The position numbers and the translations under genes were made by a program. From IMG/VR virus record IMGVR_UViG_3300007735_000871, positions 1-20,080 of that record: DNA of 20,080 nucleotides. One strand, 5' to 3'. The notes below the pieces were generated by a model. That model saw only the letters and a list, made by a program, of their open reading frames with translations, searched no databases and was not told where the DNA came from. The DNA is from a virus. Below are positions 1-12,429 of the stretch, piece by piece. Position 1 is the stretch's first letter. Each line of letters starts with the position of its first letter.

Positions 1-3000
1 GACCTTGGTGAAGTATATGCGCAAGATATCGCAATGGCGCTATTACGCTCATTTAAGAATGACATGGGTTATACATACACCTTGCCACATTCAAGAGAAG
101 CGCCTTATTCAGAAGGGCAAGTCTGGGCAGGTGCATATATGCCTTCAGGTCGTGCCCCATTATTACTACCAACGAATGTTAGCTCTAGTTTAGAAAAAGC
201 TTGGGATGAGTATTGGCTCAATTATCAAAAGAGCCTGTATCCTAATGTGCCAATCCCACAAGTAGAAAATGCTTTTAAAGCGCGGTTTAATACTGATGAA
301 GCGTATAACAATACTCGTAATCAGCAACTTGAAGCATTTTTGCAAACTGATAAGGCAAAAGAAATTATTGGCGATCACTACGTTGCAACGCCTAAAGAGT
401 ACATGCAAAAGCTTGATGATTTTGATAAGTGGGTTGAGAATAAAGTTGTTAAGAACTTCATCTCATCTAAACTTGGCACACCTGAAGATCCTCTTATCAA
501 GCTAACTGCTGAAGGGAAGGGCTTTAGAAAAAAGACCGGCGAATTGGCGTTTGATGATAGCGTAAAAGCACGTGCATCAATACAACAAAAAAGAACTGCT
601 GCAGGCTTTCCAGCTGTAGAAACACCTACTTACTTAAAAGCTGAAGAAACACGAACGCAATTAGCAGACCTTGAAATTTCTCTTGAGCAAGTTAGAGAAG
701 AAAAAGCTGCTGCATTTCAAGAAGGCGTTGAACTATACGGTTTAGAAAATCACGCTGACCACGCACCATTTGCTGCGGCTTCACAAGAAGAAGATCGGCT
801 CAATAGAAAAATTAAGCGTACAAAAGAGCAATACAATAACTTCATGCAGGCAATTAATTACGAAACTCTTGCTGATGAAGCCATAGAGTTTTCACGCAAT
901 TTGCCTGAGACTGAACGTGACTCGTTTTTGGCAAACATAAAAAAGTCGCAGCAACAATTTTTTGAGCATACAAAGCGCGCGCCGCCTACCGAGACACTTT
1001 ACTCATATATGCCAACCGGAGCATTGCAAGTTGCTATTGATAGAACCATTGCTGAAATTGGCAAGAAGTTCTTGAAGAATGAGATCACTGATAAGCAATT
1101 GCAAAATTTGGACTTTCCAAAAGCTGTTGCACAAGTTAGTGAGACACTTGCTGATAAGCTAAAGCTTGAAGAGCAGAAACGTCAAACGTATCGTGACAGC
1201 GTGTCAAAACAAGCTTTAATAGACGCACATAAATTCCAAAAATCACCTGAACCTGATGGCACTCGAGTAATTGTCATTGACAATCAAAATTTTACGCCTG
1301 ATGAAATCACTAGGCTTATGTCAGTGGACACTGCGGTACTTAATCATTGCATGAGCAATAAAGGCTCCACAGCAAAAGAAACACATGCATTTACAGGTAA
1401 AAGTGGCACACATTACGTGCCTTATGCTGACCCGGTGACAGGTGAAATCTCACCTGATGCAACACTACAAATGAAAGGTTATATTGACGGTGTAAATAAG
1501 GGCTCATCAGTTATAGCCAGTTTTAGAGATGATAAAACTGGATTGCCGTATGCATCACTGCAATTTAGAGTTCTTAATAACGGGTCATGGACAATTCATC
1601 AGTTCAAAGGGCCTGACAATGGCGAAATTGTTGACAGCGCTAAACGTGCAAAAGACATTGCAAGTTTCTTAAACGCATACCGTCATAACATTGCAAATGA
1701 TTATGACGCATATGATCTTACTGTCTCTACAGATGCTAATGTTGTTGACACACTGCATCAAGATTCTGTTCCTCAAATCGTACAAGCATTAGGCATTCCA
1801 TCAAACGAAGCTTTAAAATACGACTTTTATGATGGTGAGCGTCGCTTCTTAACGAAGCCAGAACTCCGCCAGATGTATGAAGAGTTTAAGAAAGGCACCC
1901 GTGCACCTGCAGTAGCTAACCCTAAGCCTTCATTGGTTAATCCGTCACAGCAATGGGAATACGTAATTGACCAAGGCATGCAAGATGTAAGTATTGCTTT
2001 AGTGCAAGAAAGAGTGCCTGATGCAGATAGAGAAGAAGCCGCAACTGCATATAACGCATTAATGCATAATGGTTATATTCAAGTCGCTAATGACATACAT
2101 GCCTTAACACCTGATGTGCATGTCAACGCAATTAACGTAGGTTTGGACGTGCTTGGCATGGAATTATCTGCTTTACTTGCTGCGCTTCGGTATGATCTAG
2201 ACAATGCGTCTAATACACGAAAAGCTCTTGACGCAATGATGGACGCAGTTATTGGCTCGACTAAATCGCCAATCATTACATTTTTAGATAAGAATAGACC
2301 GCTTAATGCAGTATTGGTACGCGGTACTCAATCTTTTAGTTACGCGCTTGATTGGTTTTTTAGCAACGTTGTGCATAATGATGAGTTTTTGAATACCGTT
2401 GACTCAATAGTACTTTCAACAATAGAAGGCGTGCGTCAAGCAGGTCTTACATTAGAAAGTTTTTATCCAGTTTTTGACTCTCCTAGAGCTGATGCGTTTG
2501 CTACTGAAATGCAAAATCAATTTTCGGCTGCTGATAATCCTGAGTATCGACAGCAAATTAAGTCGAACCTTGAAAAGTTTGCCACTGACATCAACGCCAA
2601 TACAGCAAATGGGACTATTCCAAAGCTTATTGAGAATCTAGTAGAAGAGTCAATGGATACGTTGCCTTTATTTGAAAGAACAGCTTATATGTATGCTGCT
2701 TCTGAAATGCTGCGTTACGTACAAGAATATTTCATGCATACTGATCTTATTGATAATGCAATGCAAACTGTAGCTACGCCTACTGTTTATAAGTTTATCA
2801 ATGATCCGATGTACGTAAACTCATTGCATAATCGTGAAGTGCCTATGCCTGAGCGATTTGCACAAGCACGTGCGCAACAAGCGCCTGTACAAGTTGTGGA
2901 TATGGATATTCCTGAAGAGCCTTTAGTTGATGATCAAGGTCGATTGCTTGCTGACTTTGAACCAGAACCACCTGTGCAAATGCCTGAAGGTCCTGACATC

Positions 3001-3492
3001 GTTGTTCGCGGTCGCAATCAACAGCCTATCCCACCTCTTATTGGGCCTGAAGCCGACGCACAACCTGCACCACAACCACAAATAGCGCCTTTGGCGCCTG
3101 TACCTGTAGAGACGCTTAATTTAGCTACCGCGCGGCTTGTGGCTCAAGTAACTGCTGAACAGGCTCGTGAAGTGCAAGATGCGCTTACGGCGCTTAGAGA
3201 GCAAAACATAAATGATCCAGTAGCGCTTAACGCATTACCAGACATAATTGCTCAGTATGCCATAGGACCTTGGGCACAGTTTGATAACATACAGCGTGCG
3301 TTACTAAAACGAAGTGTTGAAGAGCTTATAGAATATGAAAACCGAGCTGCGCAACGGCGACTTGAGCAACTAGGGCGCAACGCACCCGATAATAACGAAG
3401 ACGATGATATACCATTTGCGCAAGGCGGTTTGGTTGAAAGGCCTTTGACAATCGATGATATGAAGTATGCTCTTATGATGCGGAGTGCCTAA
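1..3492 (+). CDS. Giant phage protein, 5'-truncated, with PcfJ-like region (putative polyvalent/internal virion protein)
   Basis: The frame is open from base 1, so the true start lies upstream; the first internal Met codon is at 34 but the codons before it read through smoothly. The visible part is 1163 residues, soluble, with no membrane segment. Residues about 200-400 are helical and charged. Residues about 435-545 resemble the PcfJ-like domain of plasmid and phage proteins: a His-Cys pair (bases 1345-1350), then a segment ending SFRDDKTGLPYASL and a closing IHQFKGPDNG. Residues about 950-1045 are a Pro/Glu/Gln-rich linker, followed by a helical tail and a C-terminal FAQGGLV motif. The gene sits directly before the portal with a 2-base gap, where some phages encode large polyvalent or ejected proteins. 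That role is inference. GC is low (one counted line is 37%), unlike the capsid and fibre genes. Existence of the gene is certain; function is open. Confidence 0.85.
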   Translation, partial: DLGEVYAQDIAMALLRSFKNDMGYTYTLPHSREAPYSEGQVWAGAYMPSGRAPLLLPTNVSSSLEKAWDEYWLNYQKSLYPNVPIPQVENAFKARFNTDEAYNNTRNQQLEAFLQTDKAKEIIGDHYVATPKEYMQKLDDFDKWVENKVVKNFISSKLGTPEDPLIKLTAEGKGFRKKTGELAFDDSVKARASIQQKRTAAGFPAVETPTYLKAEETRTQLADLEISLEQVREEKAAAFQEGVELYGLENHADHAPFAAASQEEDRLNRKIKRTKEQYNNFMQAINYETLADEAIEFSRNLPETERDSFLANIKKSQQQFFEHTKRAPPTETLYSYMPTGALQVAIDRTIAEIGKKFLKNEITDKQLQNLDFPKAVAQVSETLADKLKLEEQKRQTYRDSVSKQALIDAHKFQKSPEPDGTRVIVIDNQNFTPDEITRLMSVDTAVLNHCMSNKGSTAKETHAFTGKSGTHYVPYADPVTGEISPDATLQMKGYIDGVNKGSSVIASFRDDKTGLPYASLQFRVLNNGSWTIHQFKGPDNGEIVDSAKRAKDIASFLNAYRHNIANDYDAYDLTVSTDANVVDTLHQDSVPQIVQALGIPSNEALKYDFYDGERRFLTKPELRQMYEEFKKGTRAPAVANPKPSLVNPSQQWEYVIDQGMQDVSIALVQERVPDADREEAATAYNALMHNGYIQVANDIHALTPDVHVNAINVGLDVLGMELSALLAALRYDLDNASNTRKALDAMMDAVIGSTKSPIITFLDKNRPLNAVLVRGTQSFSYALDWFFSNVVHNDEFLNTVDSIVLSTIEGVRQAGLTLESFYPVFDSPRADAFATEMQNQFSAADNPEYRQQIKSNLEKFATDINANTANGTIPKLIENLVEESMDTLPLFERTAYMYAASEMLRYVQEYFMHTDLIDNAMQTVATPTVYKFINDPMYVNSLHNREVPMPERFAQARAQQAPVQVVDMDIPEEPLVDDQGRLLADFEPEPPVQMPEGPDIVVRGRNQQPIPPLIGPEADAQPAPQPQIAPLAPVPVETLNLATARLVAQVTAEQAREVQDALTALREQNINDPVALNALPDIIAQYAIGPWAQFDNIQRALLKRSVEELIEYENRAAQRRLEQLGRNAPDNNEDDDIPFAQGGLVERPLTIDDMKYALMMRSA

Positions 3493-3494
3493 TT

Positions 3495-6011
3495 ATGGCT
3501 ACAGAAGTGCCGATTCCTCAAGACTTTAATCGCTTTATTCCTCCTATGGTTGAAGAAGAATCAATCGAGGAAGATAAGTCAATCTTTGAGATGTTTGAAC
3601 AGGAAGACGACGATGTTGTAGAGCTTCCTGATGGCAGTGCTATTATTCGTAGCAAAGACCTTGGACCTTCAAAGGAGCCTGACTTTTATGCAAACATGGC
3701 AGAAGATATTGAGCAATTTAAGCTTGCGCCACTTGCTCAGAAGTATTTGGATCTTATTGAAAAAGATCGTGAGGCGCGTTCAGAACGTGATAAGCAATAT
3801 GAGGAAGGGATCCGGCGAACGGGGCTAGGCAAAGACGCTCCTGGTGGCGCGCAGTTTCAAGGTGCCAGCAAAGTGGTGCATCCCATCATGGCCGAGGCAT
3901 GTGTTGACTTTTCAGCTCGTGCTATTAAAGAGCTATTTCCACCTGAAGGGCCGGTGCGCACAAAGATTGTAGGTGAAACAACTGACGATAAAGTGCAAAT
4001 AGCCGAGCGTAAGCGCGACTTTATGAATTGGCAGCTCACCGAGCAAATCGTTGAGTTTAGAGCCGAAGAAGAGCAAATGCTTACGCAAATGCCTCTTGGT
4101 GGTAGTCAATACTTTAAGATTTGGTACGACGATCAGCAAAAACGTCCTTGCGTCGAGTTTGTCCCTATTGATAACATTTATTTGCCCTATGCTGCAGGTA
4201 GTTTTTATACAGCACAACGTGTGACTGAAGTCAATGACATTACGCAAGAAATGTTTGAGATTCGCGTTGACCAAGGCTTGTATATTGATTTAGATTTGAT
4301 GCCGCCTTCGCAATCGCCGGATCAATCAAAGGCTGAACAAGCTAATGACAAGATTGAAGGTCGAACAGAGCAAGCCATGAACATTGATGGCGTCCGCCGT
4401 GTGTTTCATATTTACACGTGGTTGGAGCTTGAGGATGATAGCTTTTCAAAGGGCGAGCGTGCACCTTATATCCTAATGATCGACGAGCTTAATAGAGCCG
4501 TTGTAGGTTTATATCGCAATTGGGAATACGATGATAATCGATACGTAAAGCTGGATTGGATCGTTGAGTTTCCATTTATTCCATGGCGTGGAGCTTACGC
4601 CATTGGTATGCCACATTTGATTGGTGGTCTATCTGCTGCGTTAACAGGCTCATTGCGTGCTTTGCTTGATTCAGCACACATTGCCACAGCGCCTACTATG
4701 CTAAAGCTAAAAGGTGCAAAGATTAGTGGACAATCAACAAGCATTGAGCCTACGCAGGTATCTGAAATTGAAGGCGCGCCTGGCGTTGATGATATTAGAA
4801 AAGTCGCCATGCCTGTACCCTTTAATCAGCCCAGTCCTGTTTTATACGAGCTGCTTGGTTGGTTAACCAATGCTGCAAAGGGTGTGGTTACAACCAGCGA
4901 GGAAAAGATTGCAGATGTTACGTCCAATGCTCCGGTAGGCACAACACAAGCTTTGATTGAGCAAGGCGCTGCGGTATTCTCAGCCATTCATGCAAGGTTG
5001 CACGCCAGCCAGCGTCGAGTCTTACAAGTACTTACGCGTATTAATCGTTGGTACTTTGATGAGATGGATAAAGCCGAGATGGTTGAAGATCTTGGCATTA
5101 GAAAAGAAGACTTTGAGAAGAACAGCGATGTTATGCCGGTTAGCGACCCGCATATCTTTGCTGAGACGCAACGGTATGCGCAAATTCAAACCTTGGCATC
5201 GCGTGCTGAGAAAAACCCTGACTTGTATAATCGTCTGGCAGTTGAAAAGCGTATCTTAAAGCAAATCAAACTGCCTGATATTAATGAAGTCTTACCTGAT
5301 CCTAAAGAAGTTAAAGAAATGAATCCGGCTTTGGAAAACGTAGCTATGACGTTAGGCAAGCCGGTTGGTGCGTTTCCTCAGCAAGATCATATTGCTCACC
5401 TTATGGTGCATTGCGCTTATGCCATTGACCCGACGTATGGTGCAAGTCCACTTATTGCAAAGTCATTTACGCCGGCGTTTTTAGAGCACGCCAAGCAGCA
5501 TATGACGCTATGGTACTTAAATCAAGTTGATGGCTATGCTAGTGCTGCGTTGGATAGACCTTTTAATGTTTTGAAAGAACAACAGCTTCCGCATGAGGCT
5601 GATAAGTTCATGGCCGTCATTGCACAGTTGGTGCATAAGGATACGCAGCCGACGTTTCAAAATATCCAACAGGTTATTCAAGGCGCCATGCAAGTCATGC
5701 AGCAATTACAACCGCAGCCACCTATGGATCCAGCAACTCAAGCATTTGTGCAAACATCCATGGCAGAGACACAACGCCGTGCTATGAAAGATCAAGCCGA
5801 CGTGCAATTGAATATGGCTAAGTTAGAGCAAAAGGCACAAGCCGATCAAGCTAAACTACAAGCCGATATTGTTATGAATACCGAAGACAATCTGGTTAAT
5901 GAAAGAATCAAGACGGCAGAACTTACGCGCGACGCTGCCGACTTGCAAAATGAGCAAGTTCGTACTGCTCTTGACGCGCAACGTATGGTTCAAACCTCAT
6001 TAGGAGCATGA
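3495..6011 (+). CDS. Portal protein, P22-like
   Basis: An 838-residue protein forming the dodecameric ring at the head vertex through which DNA is packaged and ejected. P22 portal is 725 residues, so this is long. After an acidic N-terminus, residues about 120-160 carry a stretch I recognise from podovirus portals (GASKVVHPIMAEACVDFSAR, then KELFPPEGP). The middle holds the usual alpha/beta wing and stem region, and near residue 548 is VSDPHIFAETQRYAQIQ, also typical of the family. From about residue 735 the chain is Gln/Ala-rich and helical with coiled-coil character, matching the C-terminal barrel of P22-type portals. The start ATG has GGAG at 3482-3485. The gene precedes scaffold and capsid genes in standard head-cluster order. 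The family call is firm; the exact portal subtype is less so. Confidence 0.9.
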   Translation: MATEVPIPQDFNRFIPPMVEEESIEEDKSIFEMFEQEDDDVVELPDGSAIIRSKDLGPSKEPDFYANMAEDIEQFKLAPLAQKYLDLIEKDREARSERDKQYEEGIRRTGLGKDAPGGAQFQGASKVVHPIMAEACVDFSARAIKELFPPEGPVRTKIVGETTDDKVQIAERKRDFMNWQLTEQIVEFRAEEEQMLTQMPLGGSQYFKIWYDDQQKRPCVEFVPIDNIYLPYAAGSFYTAQRVTEVNDITQEMFEIRVDQGLYIDLDLMPPSQSPDQSKAEQANDKIEGRTEQAMNIDGVRRVFHIYTWLELEDDSFSKGERAPYILMIDELNRAVVGLYRNWEYDDNRYVKLDWIVEFPFIPWRGAYAIGMPHLIGGLSAALTGSLRALLDSAHIATAPTMLKLKGAKISGQSTSIEPTQVSEIEGAPGVDDIRKVAMPVPFNQPSPVLYELLGWLTNAAKGVVTTSEEKIADVTSNAPVGTTQALIEQGAAVFSAIHARLHASQRRVLQVLTRINRWYFDEMDKAEMVEDLGIRKEDFEKNSDVMPVSDPHIFAETQRYAQIQTLASRAEKNPDLYNRLAVEKRILKQIKLPDINEVLPDPKEVKEMNPALENVAMTLGKPVGAFPQQDHIAHLMVHCAYAIDPTYGASPLIAKSFTPAFLEHAKQHMTLWYLNQVDGYASAALDRPFNVLKEQQLPHEADKFMAVIAQLVHKDTQPTFQNIQQVIQGAMQVMQQLQPQPPMDPATQAFVQTSMAETQRRAMKDQADVQLNMAKLEQKAQADQAKLQADIVMNTEDNLVNERIKTAELTRDAADLQNEQVRTALDAQRMVQTSLGA

Positions 6012-6012
6012 C

Positions 6013-6303
6013 ATGTCGGATGAAGGAATTAATCTCCATAAGAGAATGGCTATGGGAGCGGGCGAGGGCATTGCAAAAGCTCCAGGAAAAGGCCCAATTC
6101 AAAAATACAAAGAGGGCGGAAAAGTTATGCCGGAAAAGGGCGTTGCTAATTTGCCTGCTCGTGGATCTGCACCTCCACCTTTGCCTATAGGCGGTAAAAC
6201 TAAGATTGCAACAATGAAAAAGGGCGGTATGCCAAAAAAGCCACCTGGGCTTATGATTGCTATTGGCATGCCTATTAAGAAGTCATCCGGTCGGGGCCGC
6301 TAG
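6013..6303 (+). CDS. Small basic Gly/Lys-rich phage protein with GG motifs
   Basis: A 96-residue basic protein, rich in Gly, Lys, Met and Pro, probably disordered. It contains two copies of a lysine-flanked double glycine (KYKEGGKV and TMKKGGMP) and ends in a Lys/Arg/Gly-rich tail. The start is well set: TAGGAG lies at 6001-6006, one base separates the portal stop from the ATG, and the genes are probably translationally coupled. I do not recognise a characterised family. Similar short basic GG-containing proteins are common in freshwater phage genomes, to my knowledge without assigned function. Position next to the portal suggests a minor head component or a nucleic-acid-binding peptide, but the sequence shows no catalytic feature. 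Confidence 0.8.
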   Translation: MSDEGINLHKRMAMGAGEGIAKAPGKGPIQKYKEGGKVMPEKGVANLPARGSAPPPLPIGGKTKIATMKKGGMPKKPPGLMIAIGMPIKKSSGRGR

Positions 6304-6306
6304 TTT

Positions 6307-6489
6307 ATGCGTGTTTCTGATCTCATCGGTCGACTAAAAGCTGCGCAACTGCGGCTTGCTGGAGTTCTTACAAGTGGAACTCCACAAACTTTTGATGCGT
6401 ATCAGCGATTAGTTGGCGTACACCAAGGCTTGGATGAAGCCTTGAATATCATTAACCAACTTATAGAAGAGGAAGAGAATGTCGAATGA
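6307..6489 (+). CDS. Small helical phage protein, unknown function
   Basis: A 60-residue protein predicted almost entirely helical: an amphipathic N-terminal helix (LIGRLKAAQLRLAGVL), a short turn, then a second helix ending in an acidic EEEEN tail. There is no signal peptide or metal motif. It begins 3 bases after the preceding stop without a clear Shine-Dalgarno sequence, so translation probably depends on the upstream gene. Its last 11 bases overlap the start of the co-chaperonin gene, a further sign that it is a real member of the operon. Short helical proteins of this look are frequent in phage head clusters, but I know no function for them. Confidence 0.65.
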   Translation: MRVSDLIGRLKAAQLRLAGVLTSGTPQTFDAYQRLVGVHQGLDEALNIINQLIEEEENVE

Positions 6490-6901
6490 CATTATTGAAC
6501 AGACGCTTGAAGAAGCGTTTCCTGAAATTGACCCTATGATGGCACCGTATGGGGCTAGAGTTTTAGTACAGTTACGTGCGGTGAAAGAAAAAGTGTCAAA
6601 AGCCGGCTTGGTTTTGGTTGAAGAAACCCGCGAAACCGAGAAATGGAACACAATGATCGGTAAGATTATTGCCATTGGCCCTTTGGCATTCAAAAAGCGT
6701 GAATCTATGGAGCCTTGGCCTGAAGGATCATGGGCTGAAGTTGGCGACTTTGTTCGCGTACCAAAATGGGGTGGTGATCGATGGGAAGTTGACTATGAAA
6801 AGGGTGAGCATAAGGGCAAAGCCTTGTTTACTTTTTTCAATGACCATGAATTGATTGGCAAAGTCACAGGCGACCCGTTGAAAATCAAAGCTTTCATTTA
6901 A
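6479..6901 (+). CDS. GroES-like co-chaperonin (Cpn10 family), phage-encoded
   Basis: A 140-residue protein with the Cpn10 layout; cellular GroES is about 97 residues. After a 22-residue acidic extension comes PYGARVLVQLRAV, matching the first strand of GroES. Residues 34-58 fit the mobile loop, with Leu-Val-Leu at 44-46 in the place of the Ile-Val-Leu tripeptide of GroES that binds GroEL. GKIIAIGP (61-68) matches the strand after the loop, and VGDFVRVPKWGG (88-99) matches the conserved VGD segment. The C-terminus (about 114-128) fits the last strand. Known phage relatives such as T4 gp31 replace host GroES to fold the capsid protein. Its place between portal and scaffold suggests the same here (inference). 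A purine-rich stretch at 6466-6477 serves as ribosome site, and the gene overlaps its upstream neighbour by 11 bases. Confidence 0.85.
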   Translation: MSNDIIEQTLEEAFPEIDPMMAPYGARVLVQLRAVKEKVSKAGLVLVEETRETEKWNTMIGKIIAIGPLAFKKRESMEPWPEGSWAEVGDFVRVPKWGGDRWEVDYEKGEHKGKALFTFFNDHELIGKVTGDPLKIKAFI

Positions 6902-6906
6902 GTTTT

Positions 6907-6915
6907 GAAAGGAAA
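6907..6915 (+). promoter_or_regulatory. Ribosome binding site that sets the scaffold start
   Basis: GAAAGGAAA lies 7 bases before the ATG at 6923. An in-frame TTG at 6905 would put the site inside the coding region, so 6923 is the likelier start. Confidence 0.6.
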
Positions 6916-6922
6916 CTACGTA

Positions 6923-7918
6923 ATGAATGCCACAGAAAAGTTGGAAATGCAGATTGCTGAGGAGCAAGACGGCTCGGCAATTGTCAAAATACCCATAACC
7001 GATGAAGATCTTGACCAAGATCAACAAAGTAACGCTCAAAATGCTTCAAGTGATGCATCAGATGACACTGAGGGACCCGATTCTTCAGACGATGATGGCA
7101 ACTATGGTCCTGATGATGATAGAGAGGCCATAAGAGCTGCTCGACGCGAAGAAAGAAAGCTTAAGAAGCAACTTCATCGTGAAAAAGCACGCGAATCTAA
7201 TCATCTTATCAATGCTTTACGCAAGCAAAACCAAGATTTAGCTCAGCGCCTTGCTGCGGTTGAAAGTAAGACGTCTGGAGCCGAGTTCGCAAGGTTAGAA
7301 AAAGCAATTGATGATGCTTCGACACGAGTTGAATACGCAAAGTTGCAAATTAAGCAAGCAACAACTTCTAGAAATGGCGATGACATGGCCAAAGCACAAC
7401 AGCTTTGGTATGATAGTCAGCGCCAGTTAGAAAGTTTGCAAGCTATGAAGGAAACTGCCGCAAAGCAGCTTTCTCAGCCTAAGCAAAATATTTCTGTGCC
7501 TGATCCTTCTGTGCAAAAGAACGCTGCAGATTGGATGGGACGAAATCGTTGGTATGACCCCCAATTGCGTGATCCAGATTCAAAAATTGCGCAAATGATT
7601 GATAATCAGCTTACAGAAGAAGGGTTTGACCCGTCTTTGCCTGATTATTGGGACGAATTAGATGAAAGAGTGCAAAAATACCTTCCACATCGCTATAATT
7701 CGGGGTATAGTAGCAACGTACGAAATCCTAAACCGAGATCTCCTGTGACAAGTTCCGGCCGCGAATCCTCACCAGCAACTAAACTTGGCGAATTCAGACT
7801 AGACCCTGAACGCGTCAGGGCTATTAAAGAAGCTGGCATGTGGGATGACCCAAAGCAGCGGAAACGTATGATTGATAAGTACGTGGAATTTGACCGTCAA
7901 CAGAAGAGAGGTGGTTAA
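6923..7918 (+). CDS. Scaffolding-type protein, capsid assembly
   Basis: A 331-residue acidic and helical protein with the usual make-up and position of a phage scaffold, which guides coat assembly and then leaves the procapsid. Residues about 28-66 are very rich in Asp, Ser and Glu. Residues about 66-185 form a long charged helix or coiled coil. A conserved aromatic segment follows (GRNRWYDPQLRDPDSKIA near 206-223, then YWDELDERVQKYLPHR near 242-257). The C-terminus is basic and helical, as expected for the coat-binding end of P22-type scaffolds. The start at ATG 6923 is chosen over an in-frame TTG at 6905 because of the ribosome site between them. It lies between portal and capsid genes. No protease motif is visible, so it may leave intact as in P22. 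Confidence 0.75.
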   Translation: MNATEKLEMQIAEEQDGSAIVKIPITDEDLDQDQQSNAQNASSDASDDTEGPDSSDDDGNYGPDDDREAIRAARREERKLKKQLHREKARESNHLINALRKQNQDLAQRLAAVESKTSGAEFARLEKAIDDASTRVEYAKLQIKQATTSRNGDDMAKAQQLWYDSQRQLESLQAMKETAAKQLSQPKQNISVPDPSVQKNAADWMGRNRWYDPQLRDPDSKIAQMIDNQLTEEGFDPSLPDYWDELDERVQKYLPHRYNSGYSSNVRNPKPRSPVTSSGRESSPATKLGEFRLDPERVRAIKEAGMWDDPKQRKRMIDKYVEFDRQQKRGG

Positions 7919-7919
7919 C

Positions 7920-8456
7920 ATGGATGATCGTTTAAGAAAGAATACTCGTGCTGGTCGTGAAAATCGTGCTGCGCAAGATGAGTCACGTCAAGCACCTGAG
8001 TCTAAGTTTGCATTATCTGAGGAACGTCGTAAGATGTTCCGCTCGGAATGGCTACAAGAAGCTCTTCCGACTCCCCCTGAGATTCCAGGCTATCACTTAT
8101 GCTGGCTCTCATCCAACAACTCGTATGACCCCATTCACAAAAGAATGCGCCTTGGCTATGAGCCTGTGAAAGCCGATGAATTGCCCGGCTTTGAGCATTT
8201 GAAAGTGAAAGCTGGCGAGCATGTAGGCTTTGTTGCATGTAATGAGATGCTACTCTTTAAACTTCCGATGGATATCTATCAGGAGATGATGTATGAGTTG
8301 CATCACAGATTGCCTCTTGAAGAACAAGAGAAAATCAAAGTGCAGCAGGATCAGTTGCTACAGTCTCGTGACAAGAATGGTCGTTCACTTGTTATGGTTG
8401 AAGGCGACGGCATGAACTTTAACAATCCGGCACCTGCAATACCTATTTTTGAATAG
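7920..8456 (+). CDS. Conserved phage protein of unknown function, head cluster
   Basis: A 178-residue protein starting at ATG 7920, one base after the scaffold stop, with an AGAGAGGTGG ribosome site just upstream. The first 35 residues are charged and probably flexible. The core (about 36-125) has a compact conserved look: PPEIPGYHLCWLSSNNSYDP, then KRMRLGYEPVKADELPGFEH, then two strands and NEMLLFKLPMDIYQ. The rest is a charged helix and a short Pro-rich tail. I recognise this as a recurrent protein between scaffold and capsid genes of podovirus-like phages, but no function is known to me. It might be an assembly factor or minor virion protein because of its place; nothing in the sequence shows enzymatic activity. 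Confidence 0.8.
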   Translation: MDDRLRKNTRAGRENRAAQDESRQAPESKFALSEERRKMFRSEWLQEALPTPPEIPGYHLCWLSSNNSYDPIHKRMRLGYEPVKADELPGFEHLKVKAGEHVGFVACNEMLLFKLPMDIYQEMMYELHHRLPLEEQEKIKVQQDQLLQSRDKNGRSLVMVEGDGMNFNNPAPAIPIFE

Positions 8457-8490
8457 TGTATGCAAGAGCCTATTTTAGTAAGGACTAATG

Positions 8491-9066
8491 ATGAGCGCTA
8501 CTAATGCTCCGTTTGGCCTTCGTCCCGTATACCATCCTTCTGGTTTGGATCGCGCGACGGTATTGGCCGGCGGCATTCCGTCCGGGTACGCCACTCAGAT
8601 TCTGAAGGGCCAGCCCGTTAAGTATAACAGCAGTGGTCAAATTGTACCTGCTGCTGCAGGTGATTCGTTTGTTGGTGCCTTTGCAGGCGTTGAGTTTACC
8701 GACAGTACGGGTCGTTATCGTGTGTCTAATTACTGGCCAGCTAGCCAGTCTTTGGCTACTAACACCGTAGCAACTGCATATTTTTATAGTGATCCCCTTA
8801 TTGTTTATGAGATCCAGGCAAATGGTTCGCTGGCTCAAACAGCAATTGGTGATCAGGCTGATCTTACTGACGTCATCGATGGTTCTTCAACTACCGGATT
8901 GTCGCAAGCCAGACTATCAACCACTTTGGTTGGTGCAGGTAGCTCGGCCCAAATGCGTATTGTGGACATTGCACCTTATCCTGGCAATGCTTGGGGTGAT
9001 GCATTCACGATCGTTCGTGTAACTATTAACGAGTCGCAAGTTCAAGCGACCGTTAATGCATTCTAA
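8491..9066 (+). CDS. Probable head decoration / virion structural protein
   Basis: A 191-residue beta-rich protein beginning SATNAPFGLRPV, an opening I associate with a phage structural protein encoded just before the capsid gene. It is rich in Ala, Gly, Ser, Thr and Val and lacks Cys, as expected for a capsid-surface or cement protein. Two adjacent ATG codons (8488 and 8491) are possible. The TAAGGA at 8479-8484 is better spaced from 8491, so that start is used here. Its GC content rises abruptly compared with the genes before it, and its codon use resembles the following capsid gene, suggesting high expression. It is separated from the capsid gene by 13 bases. A role in decorating the head is inference from position and composition. 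Confidence 0.7.
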   Translation: MSATNAPFGLRPVYHPSGLDRATVLAGGIPSGYATQILKGQPVKYNSSGQIVPAAAGDSFVGAFAGVEFTDSTGRYRVSNYWPASQSLATNTVATAYFYSDPLIVYEIQANGSLAQTAIGDQADLTDVIDGSSTTGLSQARLSTTLVGAGSSAQMRIVDIAPYPGNAWGDAFTIVRVTINESQVQATVNAF

Positions 9067-9071
9067 GGAGG
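9065..9071 (+). promoter_or_regulatory. Strong ribosome binding site of capsid gene
   Basis: AAGGAGG, a perfect Shine-Dalgarno sequence, overlaps the stop of the preceding gene and lies 8 bases before the capsid ATG. It is the strongest such site in the window, as expected for the most abundant virion protein. Confidence 0.8.
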
Positions 9072-9079
9072 GCTAACAA

Positions 9080-9994
9080 ATGGCAGCCCCGATGCGCAGT
9101 ACGGACTTTAGGTCGATAGTCGAGCCTATTCTTAATGAATGTTTTGATGGCGTCTACGATCAGCGGTCCGATGAATGGTCCACGGTTTTCCGTGAGCAAA
9201 TGGGTATCCCCCGTAACTACCATGAAGAACCCGTCCTTTATGGCTTTGGTGCAGCACCGCAACTGCCCGATGGTAGCCCAGTGGCTTACCAACAGGGTGG
9301 CGTGCTCTTTCTCAAGCGCTATGTCTATTCGGTGTATGGCCTGGCCTTTGCACTGACCAAAGTGCTTGTGGAAGATGGCGACCATATCCGTATTGGTCAA
9401 GTTTACGCAAAGCATTTGGCGCAATCTTTGGTGGAAACCAAAGAGACACTTGCAGCCAACGTGCTTAACAATGCGTTTAACTCTTCCTACCCAGGCGGTG
9501 ACGGCGTGCAATTAAACGCAACAACTCACCCCATTGTGAACGGTAACGTTTCTAACTTGTTGTCAACAGCTGCGAACCTTTCGCAGACCTCACTTGAGCA
9601 AATGCTTATTCAGATTCGCCAAGCTGTGGATAACAACAACAAGAAGATTCGTCTTCAGCCACTGAAGCTTGTCGTTGCCCCTGGCAACGTTTTCCAAGCT
9701 GAAGTCTTGCTGAAATCCGTTCTTCGTGCAGGTACGGCAAACAATGACATCAACCCGGTTAAATCAATCGGTTTGCTGCCTGAAGGCGCTACTGTGCTTT
9801 CACGTTTGACAAATGCTAACGCTTGGTGGGTGCAGACTGATGCTCCGGAAGGCATGAAGCTCATGATGCGTCGTAAGCTTGAAAAGACCATGGAAGGTGA
9901 CTTTGAAACCGACTCCATGCGTTATAAAGCTACCGAGCGTTATGACATCGGCTGGACCGATTGGCGTTCCATGTATGGCACTCCTGGTGTCTAA
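9080..9994 (+). CDS. Major capsid protein, HK97-fold type
   Basis: A 304-residue protein that forms the icosahedral head shell. The N-terminus (SIVEPILNECFDGVY) is helical, followed by an aromatic-rich strand region (FLKRYVYSVYGLAFALTKVL) and a long spine-type helix near residues 112-135. The second half has LKLVVAPGNVFQAEVLL, a strand-helix segment typical of capsid A-domains, and the end (ERYDIGWTDWRSMYG) reads like the closing strand of the P-domain seen in many phage major head proteins. The gene follows portal, scaffold and decoration genes. It has the best ribosome site of the window, balanced composition near 50% GC, and a hairpin directly after the stop. There is no sign of a prohead protease gene in the window. 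The capsid call is firm; the exact subfamily is not. Confidence 0.85.
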   Translation: MAAPMRSTDFRSIVEPILNECFDGVYDQRSDEWSTVFREQMGIPRNYHEEPVLYGFGAAPQLPDGSPVAYQQGGVLFLKRYVYSVYGLAFALTKVLVEDGDHIRIGQVYAKHLAQSLVETKETLAANVLNNAFNSSYPGGDGVQLNATTHPIVNGNVSNLLSTAANLSQTSLEQMLIQIRQAVDNNNKKIRLQPLKLVVAPGNVFQAEVLLKSVLRAGTANNDINPVKSIGLLPEGATVLSRLTNANAWWVQTDAPEGMKLMMRRKLEKTMEGDFETDSMRYKATERYDIGWTDWRSMYGTPGV

Positions 9995-10000
9995 ATTGGT

Positions 10001-10018
10001 GAGAGGCTTTGGCCTCTC
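10001..10018 (+). terminator. Hairpin after capsid gene, terminator-like
   Basis: A perfect 7-base-pair stem (GAGAGGC / GCCTCTC) with a TTTG loop starts 6 bases after the capsid stop. There is no real T-run behind it, so it may be an attenuator or RNA-stabilising 3' end instead of a full terminator. Confidence 0.55.
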
Positions 10019-10037
10019 TCCTTAACAGGAGAATATA

Positions 10038-10430
10038 ATGGCGTACAATAATTCGGTAACTAATACGGCTGGACAGTTGTCAGCAATTACTGCTACGATT
10101 GCCTATACCGATACTAGCGCTGTTACAATTGGCACGATTCCTGCAAATGCGCAGATCATCAATATCAATATTGATGTAACTACGGCATTTAATGCGGGTA
10201 CAACCAACACAGTCACAGTTGGTAAAACTGGGTCTGCTGCAGCTTTTGTGGCTGCAACGTCGGTAGGTTCTGCAGGTCGTGCTTCTGTTGCAACAACTGG
10301 TGTCTATAGTGCATGGGCCAATGTTGGATCAAGTGATGTGGATTATGCCACAGTTACTTTTAGCCAAACTGGTACGGCAGCAAGTGCAGGTGCAGCACGC
10401 GTCACAATCGTTTACAAATCTTTTGCATAA
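10038..10430 (+). CDS. Small beta-sandwich phage protein (putative decoration/virion protein)
   Basis: A 130-residue protein rich in Ala, Thr, Val, Gly and Ser, with alternating hydrophobic pattern indicating an all-beta fold. Characteristic segments are TIGTIPANAQIININIDVTT, then TVTVGKTGSAAAF and a closing AGAARVTIVYKSF. It has no Cys, no signal peptide and no membrane segment. AGGAGA at 10027-10032 supports the start. It is the first gene after the capsid hairpin. I know similar small beta-proteins from the segment after capsid genes in other phages, where they are generally unannotated. A capsid-surface or connector-associated role is a guess from fold and place. Confidence 0.75.
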   Translation: MAYNNSVTNTAGQLSAITATIAYTDTSAVTIGTIPANAQIININIDVTTAFNAGTTNTVTVGKTGSAAAFVAATSVGSAGRASVATTGVYSAWANVGSSDVDYATVTFSQTGTAASAGAARVTIVYKSFA

Positions 10431-10434
10431 GGGG
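10429..10434 (+). promoter_or_regulatory. Ribosome binding site that sets the next start
   Basis: AAGGGG overlaps the upstream stop and is 9 bases before ATG 10444, but only 3 bases before the in-frame TTG at 10438. ATG 10444 is therefore preferred. Confidence 0.5.
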
Positions 10435-10443
10435 TAATTGGTC

Positions 10444-10854
10444 ATGGGTCAATTTAAGCTAATGCCAAAGATGGAAACGACTGAGCCTTCTGTAATTCTT
10501 AAACTTGCAAATGGTGGACCTGTTAAGAAAGCAATGGGCGGGCGTATGCCTGCTGCAGCTATGCCTTCTGAACGTGGTGTGCCTGCTGCAGCACGTCGAG
10601 GCGTTGCACCCCCAATGACTGTACCCAAGGGTGGAATGCGTGGACCAATGATGCGTAAAAATGGTGGTGAGGTTGAATCTAAATCGATGCATAAAGCAGA
10701 GATGGCTGGGATTAAAGGCATTAAGAAAGAGCTGAAATCTCATGAAGGTAAACCTGCTTCCAAGGCGCATAAAGGTCTTGCCACTGGTGGTGTGGCATTG
10801 AAAAATGCCAAGCATGGTGGTAAAATGAAGAAAGCCTACGGCGGCGCGTGCTAA
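10444..10854 (+). CDS. Lys/Gly/Met-rich basic phage protein with seven GG motifs
   Basis: A 136-residue strongly basic protein, low in aromatic residues, probably mostly disordered. Double glycines recur seven times, mostly next to Lys, Met or Val: LANGGPV, KAMGGRMP, PKGGMRG, RKNGGEV, LATGGVA, AKHGGKM and the C-terminal AYGGAC. Between them is one likely helix (HKAEMAGIKGIKKELKSHEG). I recognise this composition as a frequent small gene after the capsid gene of aquatic phages, without known function. The high charge suggests contact with DNA or an acidic protein surface. The start follows from AAGGGG at 10429-10434. A strong hairpin lies right behind the stop, making 10038-10854 a two-gene unit after the capsid gene. 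Confidence 0.75.
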   Translation: MGQFKLMPKMETTEPSVILKLANGGPVKKAMGGRMPAAAMPSERGVPAAARRGVAPPMTVPKGGMRGPMMRKNGGEVESKSMHKAEMAGIKGIKKELKSHEGKPASKAHKGLATGGVALKNAKHGGKMKKAYGGAC

Positions 10855-10857
10855 ATA

Positions 10858-10877
10858 GTAGGGGCTTCGGCCCCTGC
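10858..10877 (+). terminator. GC-rich TTCG hairpin, probable intrinsic terminator or attenuator
   Basis: An 8-base-pair stem (GTAGGGGC / GCCCCTGC, with one G-T wobble) closed by a TTCG tetraloop, starting 4 bases after the stop. It is followed by TTCT, not a long T-run. The very stable loop argues for an RNA-level function. Confidence 0.65.
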
Positions 10878-10895
10878 TTCTAACTGGGGACTGAT

Positions 10896-11198
10896 GTGAA
10901 AGTTCAAACAGTTTCAAAAACAGGAGTTGGGTCAAGCGACTCTTTAGTTATTAATACAAACATTAGCCCGTGCAATATTGGTTTTGGTGTCATAGTGACA
11001 GGCACGGTTAATTACACCGTTCAGCACACTTTTGATGATCCTGCATCAGGATTTTCAACTTGGTTCTCACACCCTACGGTAGCCTCTCTGACAGCCAATG
11101 CCGATGGCAACTATGCCTTCCCAGTTACCGGCGTTAAGGTCCTGGTGAACTCAGGCGCAGGCACTGCAACTTTGAAGCTAATTCAGGCAGGCATTTAG
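10896..11198 (+). CDS. Small beta-rich phage structural protein (putative)
   Basis: A 100-residue protein with all-beta pattern: two strand clusters around GFGVIVTGTVNYTVQHTFDD and a C-terminal GAGTATLKLIQAG. It has one Cys and no membrane segment. Translation starts at GTG 10896; the overlapping ATG at 10894 meets a stop at once, and upstream in-frame codons offer no better start. TGGGGA at 10885-10890 is the ribosome site. Its stop overlaps the GTG start of the next gene by one base. I have seen similar small proteins in phage head-to-tail segments but know no function. A decoration or connector-linked role would fit the place and fold. Confidence 0.7.
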   Translation: MKVQTVSKTGVGSSDSLVINTNISPCNIGFGVIVTGTVNYTVQHTFDDPASGFSTWFSHPTVASLTANADGNYAFPVTGVKVLVNSGAGTATLKLIQAGI

Positions 11199-11437
11199 TG
11201 GGCATTGTTGGTTACACCGGCGTTGCTAATCAAGCCAATACGTCCGATGGGTTTGCTCGTGGCGTAGGGGCTCAAAACGTCATTGGTGGCACGGATTGGG
11301 GCCTGGACGTTGGCGATAACGGCGTGGTCGATATGTATGGTGCGGCACCAACAACCACCTTCTACATTCTTGATGAGGCGACCCCAGGGTACGTCCTTCA
11401 GGAAGACAACAGCAAGATCGTATTGGAGGCCTCGTAA
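11198..11437 (+). CDS. Small Gly/Asp-rich phage protein, unknown
   Basis: A 79-residue acidic protein. Its first 50 residues are Gly, Asp, Asn and Val rich, and it ends in strand pairs (TTFYILDE, YVLQEDNSKIVLE) of a type often seen repeated in phage fibre-associated proteins. It starts at GTG sharing the last base of the preceding stop, and its TAA overlaps the next ATG, so three genes are linked by stop/start overlaps. The weak start argues for translational coupling. No function can be assigned; it is probably a minor structural part encoded with its neighbours. Confidence 0.6.
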   Translation: MGIVGYTGVANQANTSDGFARGVGAQNVIGGTDWGLDVGDNGVVDMYGAAPTTTFYILDEATPGYVLQEDNSKIVLEAS

Positions 11438-12021
11438 TGGCTGATCAAAAGATTTCCGCGATGCCTACCGCCGCTACCCTGACGGGTACTGAGCTTGTTC
11501 CGCTGGTACAGAGCGGTGCGAACGTAAAGGCCACGCTCGACAGCTTTCGTAACTTCGATAATGCGTATGGTGGATTTAGTGATAGCACTGATCAGACAGG
11601 CAACATTTCTACCGGAACTGTAGTTACGTTTAATACGGTTGATATTACTGATGGCGTAACGTTGGCAAGTGGGAGCAGAATTACTGTTCCTAATACTGGT
11701 AAGTACAACTTACAATTCAGTATTCAGTTCAAAAACACAAACAATGCACAAGACGATGCAACAGTTTGGCTTCGAATTAATGGCATTGACCTTACAAATT
11801 CTGCTACGCAATACACAATACCTGCGCGTAAAAGTGCCAGTATCTTTGGTTATAACGTAGCATCGCTAACGTTTTTATTGGATTTAGTTGCAGCCGATTA
11901 CGTTGAGATTGTTTGGCTTCCAACGGCTACTACAATAACGATTGAAGCTCTTCCTGCAAGTGTTTCACCCGTATACCCTGCAATTCCTTCAATTATTGCA
12001 ACAATGCTGCAGGTGGCCTAA
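11437..12021 (+). CDS. Phage virion protein with fibre anchor-like N-terminus and C1q/TNF-like jelly-roll domain
   Basis: A 194-residue protein in two parts. Residues 5-35 contain TLTGTELVPLVQSG, a short module common at the start of phage fibre proteins and also present at the start of the fibre gene at 13828. Residues about 45-194 look like a trimeric C1q/TNF-type jelly roll. Signs are a GKYNLQFSIQF strand, an alternating strand followed by VWLRINGIDL, then the ADYVEIVWLP strand and the closing IPSIIATMLQVA. Such domains trimerise and often bind surfaces. GGAGG at 11425-11429 and the TAATG overlap support the start. It may be a short fibre or a head/tail decoration; the anchor suggests attachment to the virion. 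Domain recognition is by eye and should be read as moderately sure. Confidence 0.7.
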   Translation: MADQKISAMPTAATLTGTELVPLVQSGANVKATLDSFRNFDNAYGGFSDSTDQTGNISTGTVVTFNTVDITDGVTLASGSRITVPNTGKYNLQFSIQFKNTNNAQDDATVWLRINGIDLTNSATQYTIPARKSASIFGYNVASLTFLLDLVAADYVEIVWLPTATTITIEALPASVSPVYPAIPSIIATMLQVA

Positions 12022-12429
12022 ATGCCTCTTATTAAAAGCAAATCGAAAGAAGCTTTTGGCAAAAATATTGCCACTGAAATTAGAGCAGGCAAACCTCCTA
12101 AACAAGCTGCAGCCATTGCGTATTCAGTGCAGCGTTCTGCAAAAAAGATGGCCAAAGGCGGTGATCCGCGTCTTTCTGTTTCTCGTGGTGAAAAGTTACC
12201 TACTTCACAAGGCGCGGGACTTACTGAGAAAGGTCGTCAAAAATTTAATCGCGCAACAGGCGCAAACTTAAAAGCTCCTGCGCCGCACCCAAAAACAAAA
12301 GCTGACGAGGGACGTAAAAAGTCATTTTGCGCGCGTATGAGTGGTATGCCAGGCCCTAAATATGATGATAAGGGCAACTTAACTCGTAAAGCTGCATCTT
12401 TGAAGCGTTGGAACTGCCCGGGGTGGTAA
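12022..12429 (+). CDS. Small basic phage protein with [10 protein letters not shown] and GG motifs, unknown function
   Basis: A 135-residue basic protein. Residues 1-40 form helices ([14 protein letters not shown], then [12 protein letters not shown]), followed by [10 protein letters not shown], a lysine-flanked Gly-Gly motif also found in other proteins of this window. Residues about 67-135 form a second conserved block: [20 protein letters not shown], then [10 protein letters not shown] around Cys103, and a closing LKRWNC with Cys132. Both blocks are familiar to me from many phage and metagenome proteins of unknown function. The two invariant-looking cysteines could pair or bind metal. It starts at the base after the preceding stop and ends at the base before the adaptor gene, so it is fully embedded in the operon. 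No enzyme motif is seen. Confidence 0.75.

Follow-up and report, generated by a model that had tools for sequence, protein, structure and literature searches.

A short Gly-Gly motif recurs in unrelated late proteins of one lineage of tailed phages and may be a docking signal

The window, which is the whole stretch of DNA that we analyzed, is a fragment (20,080 bp) from the genome of an environmental tailed phage. In order, it encodes a giant protein (cut at the 5' end), the portal, proteins of 96 aa and 60 aa, GroES, a scaffold-like protein, and proteins of 178 aa and 192 aa. These are followed by the major capsid protein, proteins of 130 aa and 136 aa, three short proteins, a 135-aa protein, and adaptor-like and fibre-like proteins. 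The labels "scaffold-like" and "adaptor-like" are based on gene order and on annotated relatives. The GroES-like co-chaperonin gene (PHROG 3188; window 6479-6901), between the portal and scaffold genes, is kept in most relatives. Close relatives of the capsid protein (loci L394-L407) are on contigs that binning has placed in metagenome genomes, betaproteobacterial ones among them. The host might therefore be a betaproteobacterium, though such binning is unreliable.

Four of these proteins, all encoded on the + strand, contain short motifs centered on Gly-Gly (GG). The giant late protein (1..3492; at least 1163 aa, truncated by the window's 5' boundary) is encoded just upstream of the portal gene, and it has a strict match to the motif that we describe below, FAQGGLV (3415..3435), with the GG 21 residues from its C-terminus. 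Directly 3' of the portal gene, the 96-aa basic protein (6013..6303) has two copies: YKEGGKV (6106..6126), which is a strict match, and MKKGGMP (6214..6234), which has the core of the motif without V or A at +2. The 136-aa Lys-rich protein (10444..10854; ATG start at 10444, open frame from a TTG at 10438) has seven GG pairs, including the strict matches LANGGPV (10504..10524) and LATGGVA (10777..10797). Finally, the 135-aa basic protein (12022..12429) comprises an N-terminal helical module (PHROG 2423), a copy of the motif core (MAKGGDP, 12148..12168), and then DUF6321 (PF19846, which matches residues 64-130 with 77.0 bits against the curated Pfam cut-off of 28.5). This copy is exactly at the joint of the two modules.

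All of the GG instances that a sequence-only reading of the window had named in these four proteins are where it placed them. But its pattern, [K/A/F]-x-x-GG-[V/M/K/L/D], was too loose, and most of its own examples do not fit. In 21 of the 22 window proteins, GG pairs by themselves are no more frequent than in composition-matched shuffles, and in the 136-aa protein they are borderline (7 seen vs. 3.3 expected, p = 0.03). On the relatives, we refined the pattern to [YFML]-[AK]-x-G-G-x-[VA], with [YFML] at -3, [AK] at -2, and V or A at +2. The core of this pattern, [YFML][AK]xGG, has six matches in the window, all within the four named proteins. The expectation is 0.27 within those four proteins and 1.0 over all genes (p = 0.0006; this p-value is not independent because the relatives had guided the refinement of the pattern). 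Only two of the seven GG pairs of the 136-aa protein fit the refined pattern.

We compared four sets of loci, with up to 80 loci each. Group A has the 80 relatives found through the window's capsid protein. Group D was found via the portal of phage DSL-LC04; its loci are distant from group A and have a related portal. Groups B and C are controls, found via DUF6321 as in phage DSL-LC05 and as in marine Pelagibacter phage HTVC168P, respectively, and in these phages the same DUF6321 module is encoded by its own gene. In group A, the core is found 661 times (56.8 expected), and in group D 174 times (33.6 expected; 71/80 loci), with no excess in group B (26 vs. 30.6 expected) or group C (18 vs. 34.0 expected). 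Reversed motifs are near background. Group D is the independent support for the pattern, as it was gathered with a different protein and was not used in the refinement.

Because the excess is present in groups A and D and absent from groups B and C, the motif marks a lineage and not freshwater phages generally. The sequence-only reading had described it as common in freshwater phages; group B, found with the DUF6321 of a lake phage, gives no support for such a general trait. Rather, the motif belongs to phages of one portal family, and not to all phages with the same small modules. In the wider portal family, we found no excess in Roseobacter phage CRP-901, Pelagibacter phage HTVC023P, or Caulobacter phage RW. 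Phage RW shares the portal, GroES, scaffold, and capsid genes and lacks the proteins that carry the motif.

Across the 80 relatives, the narrow pattern around GG is found in the families of the 136-aa, 96-aa, and 135-aa proteins and in the giants, and not in the fibres. For counts by family, we used a stricter pattern, [YFML][AKQ]xGGx[VAILM], and compared it with shuffles. There were 471 matches in the 136-aa family (vs. 6.2), 35 in the 96-aa family (vs. 0.4), 13 in the 135-aa family (vs. 0.9), 54 in five families of giants (vs. about 2.7), and 11 in the scaffold family (vs. 0.4). These counts show conservation as well as excess because related sequences are included. The portal, GroES, and 192-aa protein families have no matches. 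The sequence-only reading had held that a frequency no higher than in composition-matched shuffles, or a lack of conservation in orthologues, would count against the motif. It far exceeds the shuffles and is conserved, and it is indeed common to proteins that otherwise lack similarity. All 80 relatives have a motif-like YQQGGVLF in the capsid protein (window 9080-9994), which we excluded as probably a single conserved site of the capsid fold.

Where [AK]xGG is present, the residue at -3 is mostly Y, M, L, or F (K is next), and I and V are almost absent. Position -1 is polar and +1 is free; at +2 there is V or A, and charged residues hardly ever occur. Proline at +1 is depleted in group A and enriched in group D. 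Selection acts only on about -4 to +3 around the GG, and this span, together with the constraint on both sides, would fit a short linear motif that is read by a candidate partner. The codons at both glycines of the motif vary much as they do at other glycines, so the signal is in the protein, and we rejected a DNA-level signal such as a recombination site. We also rejected the idea that the motif is a relic of start codons (M-K-x-G): at -3, Y, F, and L together outnumber M, and at the one site considered, the Met at the joint in the window, no Shine-Dalgarno-like stretch precedes it.

The carriers of the motif comprise at least five classes of late proteins and sit within the late, virion gene block. 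The giants are the most varied. In the relatives, their slot lies between the terminase and portal genes, and in groups A and D, 85 of the 96 distinct proteins in this slot have the motif (14 expected), leaving 11 without a copy of the core. Among 25 mutually non-similar giants from this slot, 20 carry it. In complete giants, motifs are enriched about 3.5-fold within 60 aa of either end, and in the window giant's own family, 9/10 members have a GG motif near the C-terminus. In the window giant, we found no significant Pfam domain, nor any peptidase domain. One relative in the slot is annotated as PcfJ-like, and another has DUF6973. In the 1863-aa giant at L094:3298-8889, DUF6973 spans residues 1725-1823 and is closely flanked by a GG motif on each side.

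Large, mosaic late proteins, as well as the PcfJ-like and DUF6973 relatives, are reminiscent of the polyvalent proteins (Iyer et al. 2017). The window giant fits these in size and lacks a Pfam domain. No GG motif is reported in that study.

Small proteins encoded after the portal carry the motif in both groups A and D. In the 96-aa family, both sites are kept in 12/12 relatives counted. Some of the post-portal proteins of group D have KYKAGSTPAG in place of KMKSGGSVQG. A tape-measure-type DSIPAMLSDGEFV domain is found in another late carrier, and in 7/10 relatives the motif precedes this domain. Similar wording occurs in known tape-measure proteins. In Nitrincola phage 1M3-16, FATGGYV and FSTGGYV lie on both sides of a GTGTSDSIPAWLSNGEFV domain, and Gordonia phage Woes has AYRTGGPV and AYAMGGPV. 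The window's relatives carry the motif before the same domain as in the FATGGYV...GTGTSDSIPAWLSNGEFV element. There, a single tail protein is involved, whereas here the motif is found in at least five classes of late proteins. In the literature that we searched, we did not find a role for the FATGGYV-type element in tape measures.

The 136-aa family is a Lys-rich and Gly-rich protein encoded after the capsid gene, and it is predicted to be disordered. Complete relatives are 145-528 aa long with a mean of 8 motif cores, and the sites are 6-10 residues apart. The family has a conserved N-terminal block (MGQFKPMxKMxTTEPSVELKLKKGG), and 42/51 complete members end in Cys, usually 1-3 residues after the last GG. 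One member (L078) has an internal module of the GLYANIHAKR type with a GG motif on each side. Among named phages, our search for homologues of this family returned only MW202545 itself; low complexity hinders the search. The composition, predicted disorder, length, and many copies raise the idea that the aromatic-Lys-Gly-Gly repeats act as stickers, condensing with DNA and drawing in other proteins with the same unit. In phage RW, the 136-aa family is absent together with the other carriers, which would also be expected. We consider this improbable: the window giant has just one copy and is not basic.

The clearest pattern in the placement of the motif comes from modules that are fused in some phages and separate in others. 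Phages KBS-P-1A, HTVC168P, and DSL-LC05 encode the modules as short genes of their own, without the motif core, and in KBS-P-1A and HTVC168P these genes sit between the scaffold and capsid genes. Sets of 2-3 short basic genes (PHROG 2423-like, GLYANIHAKR, and DUF6321; loci L104, L105, and L108) recur near the scaffold and capsid or the terminase genes in cyanophages, Pelagibacter phages, and DSL-LC05.

When DUF6321 is fused, in the window's group, there is a GG within the 8 residues upstream in 39/39 cases; when it is a separate gene, in any group, this is seen in 0/58. Similarly, GG is at the joint of 18/18 fused GLYANIHAKR modules in group A and in 0 of about 36 separate GLYANIHAKR genes from all groups. 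Pooling the two modules, GG is at 57/57 fused joints in the window's group and in 0 of about 94 separate genes. Two cases from group B that were counted as fused, one of them probably via the choice of start, lack GG. In a low-confidence structure model of the 135-aa protein, the GG directly follows a predicted helix and opens a probably disordered stretch; the model for the 136-aa protein is also of low confidence.

The joint statistic favors either of two explanations. In the first, a viral or host protease would cut at or inside the Gly-Gly and separate the fused modules and the giants, during assembly or after injection. This would account for GG at every fused joint and at none of the separate modules. 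Also, in other phages these modules are encoded by separate, closely spaced genes, so they do not have to be covalently linked. Adenovirus has a comparable set of sites: its protease cuts many internal proteins at (M/I/L)XGG|X and (M/I/L)XGX|G (PMC4246237). There too, a hydrophobic residue followed by Gly-Gly is found on unrelated core and capsid-lining proteins, some of which are basic (PMC4246237). But the spacing is off by one residue. Adenovirus-type substrates have a hydrophobic P4 and Gly at P2 and P1 or at P2 and P1', while the phage motif is hydrophobic-x-x-GG, with the hydrophobic residue at -3, two residues intervening before the GG, and V or A at +2. The phage motif also allows Pro at +1 in group D, and we found no related protease.

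Indeed, no C48, C39, JAB, or S78 peptidase was above the cut-off in 18 motif-bearing genomes. The controls worked for C39, JAB, and S78; for C48, the control genomes gave no match either. A Pfam scan of the 41 proteins of one near-complete relative found no peptidase family. A host protease, or a protease of an unknown family, is possible. The enrichment of Pro at +1 in group D disfavors cleavage after the GG, and in the 136-aa family, cuts at sites 6-10 residues apart, or 1-3 residues from the C-terminus, would be pointless. Overall, we think cleavage is unlikely, but it is the strongest of the alternatives.

In the second explanation, which seems to us somewhat less likely than cleavage, the motif has no partner: it would be a favored flexible hinge or beta-turn that is kept because it joins domains without disturbing them. 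Its presence at all fused joints of group A, on both sides of DUF6973 in one giant, and before the tape-measure-type domain all agree with this, as does the constraint on both sides of the GG, as in a hairpin. But a generic linker would need no Y, F, M, or L at -3 and would not be missing from whole lineages. Furthermore, alignment breaks in the giants are only weakly concentrated near motifs (1.55-fold within 5 aa and 1.25-fold within 10 aa, vs. 1.2-fold within 10 aa for non-motif GG). We set aside this alignment-end test for junctions in the giants, as its signal was weak.

Because the motif is far above chance in unrelated late proteins and at the joints of fused modules, it is probably a shared assembly signal. 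Our preferred explanation, which we hold tentatively, is that it is a docking signal that loads proteins into the virion. We rank this ahead of cleavage, then the passive joint, and then self-association or DNA condensation. The sequence-only reading had proposed packing or docking, a protease site, and a DNA or portal contact; of these, docking and cleavage are our two leading candidates. Several observations favor docking. Like diverse cargo sharing one tag, 20/25 non-similar giants carry the motif. Groups A and D show an excess, and the control groups B and C do not. Docking is also favored by the bias towards protein ends, by Pro at +1 in group D, by how tightly the sites are spaced in the 136-aa family, by our failure to recognize a protease, and by the predicted disorder of the 136-aa family and of the joint in the 135-aa protein. 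Also, the carriers are in the late block, and phage RW, which lacks them, shows no excess. On the other hand, a simple loading tag does not need a copy at every fused joint, yet copies are seen there. The 11/96 giants without the core, the KYKAGSTPAG variants in group D, and the depletion of Pro at +1 in group A also count against docking.

If the motif is a docking signal, it would be carried, in flexible joints and at protein ends, by proteins that go inside the phage particle or are handled with it. It would be read by a single binding site on a conserved component of the head or tail, where the hydrophobic side chain from -3 and the small hydrophobic residue from +2 would be held across the Gly-Gly bend. 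The giant, the small post-portal protein, and the DUF6321 protein would each be recruited through one or a few copies, and the disordered 136-aa family would gain high avidity from its many copies. Outside the backbone, no gene tracks the motif across groups A and D, so a shared partner encoded by the phage would be a backbone protein. More broadly, and a little more cautiously, we speculate that one trans-acting factor, whether a head component or an unrecognized protease, reads the motif on late proteins of at least five classes; a module that gains the motif would then become injected or processed cargo.

The capsid targeting sequence of phage T4 offers a comparison. It is present as one N-terminal copy, which is removed by the head protease, whereas copies of the GG motif are internal, terminal, and repeated, and we found no S78 head protease in the 18 motif-bearing genomes. 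To our knowledge, there is no sequence relation between the two. What they share is that the T4 sequence is a short signal common to highly diverse internal proteins (PMC3012670), and the GG motif is a short signal on a diverse set of proteins that are presumably located in the virion.

Signals of a like sort, such as T4 capsid targeting and the adenovirus cleavage sites, are already known, as is similar wording around one tape-measure domain in unrelated phages. We found no description of the motif itself in the open literature that we searched, and its spread over five classes of carriers and the contrast between fused and separate modules are undescribed there as well. Since the same modules exist in fused and separate forms, cleavage and docking can be directly tested against each other. 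If one factor reads the motif, then in a large group of uncultured phages, whose late proteins mostly lack annotation, it would serve as a sequence tag for finding proteins that are inside the virion or injected. The sharing of one gene slot by very different giants would be explained as well.
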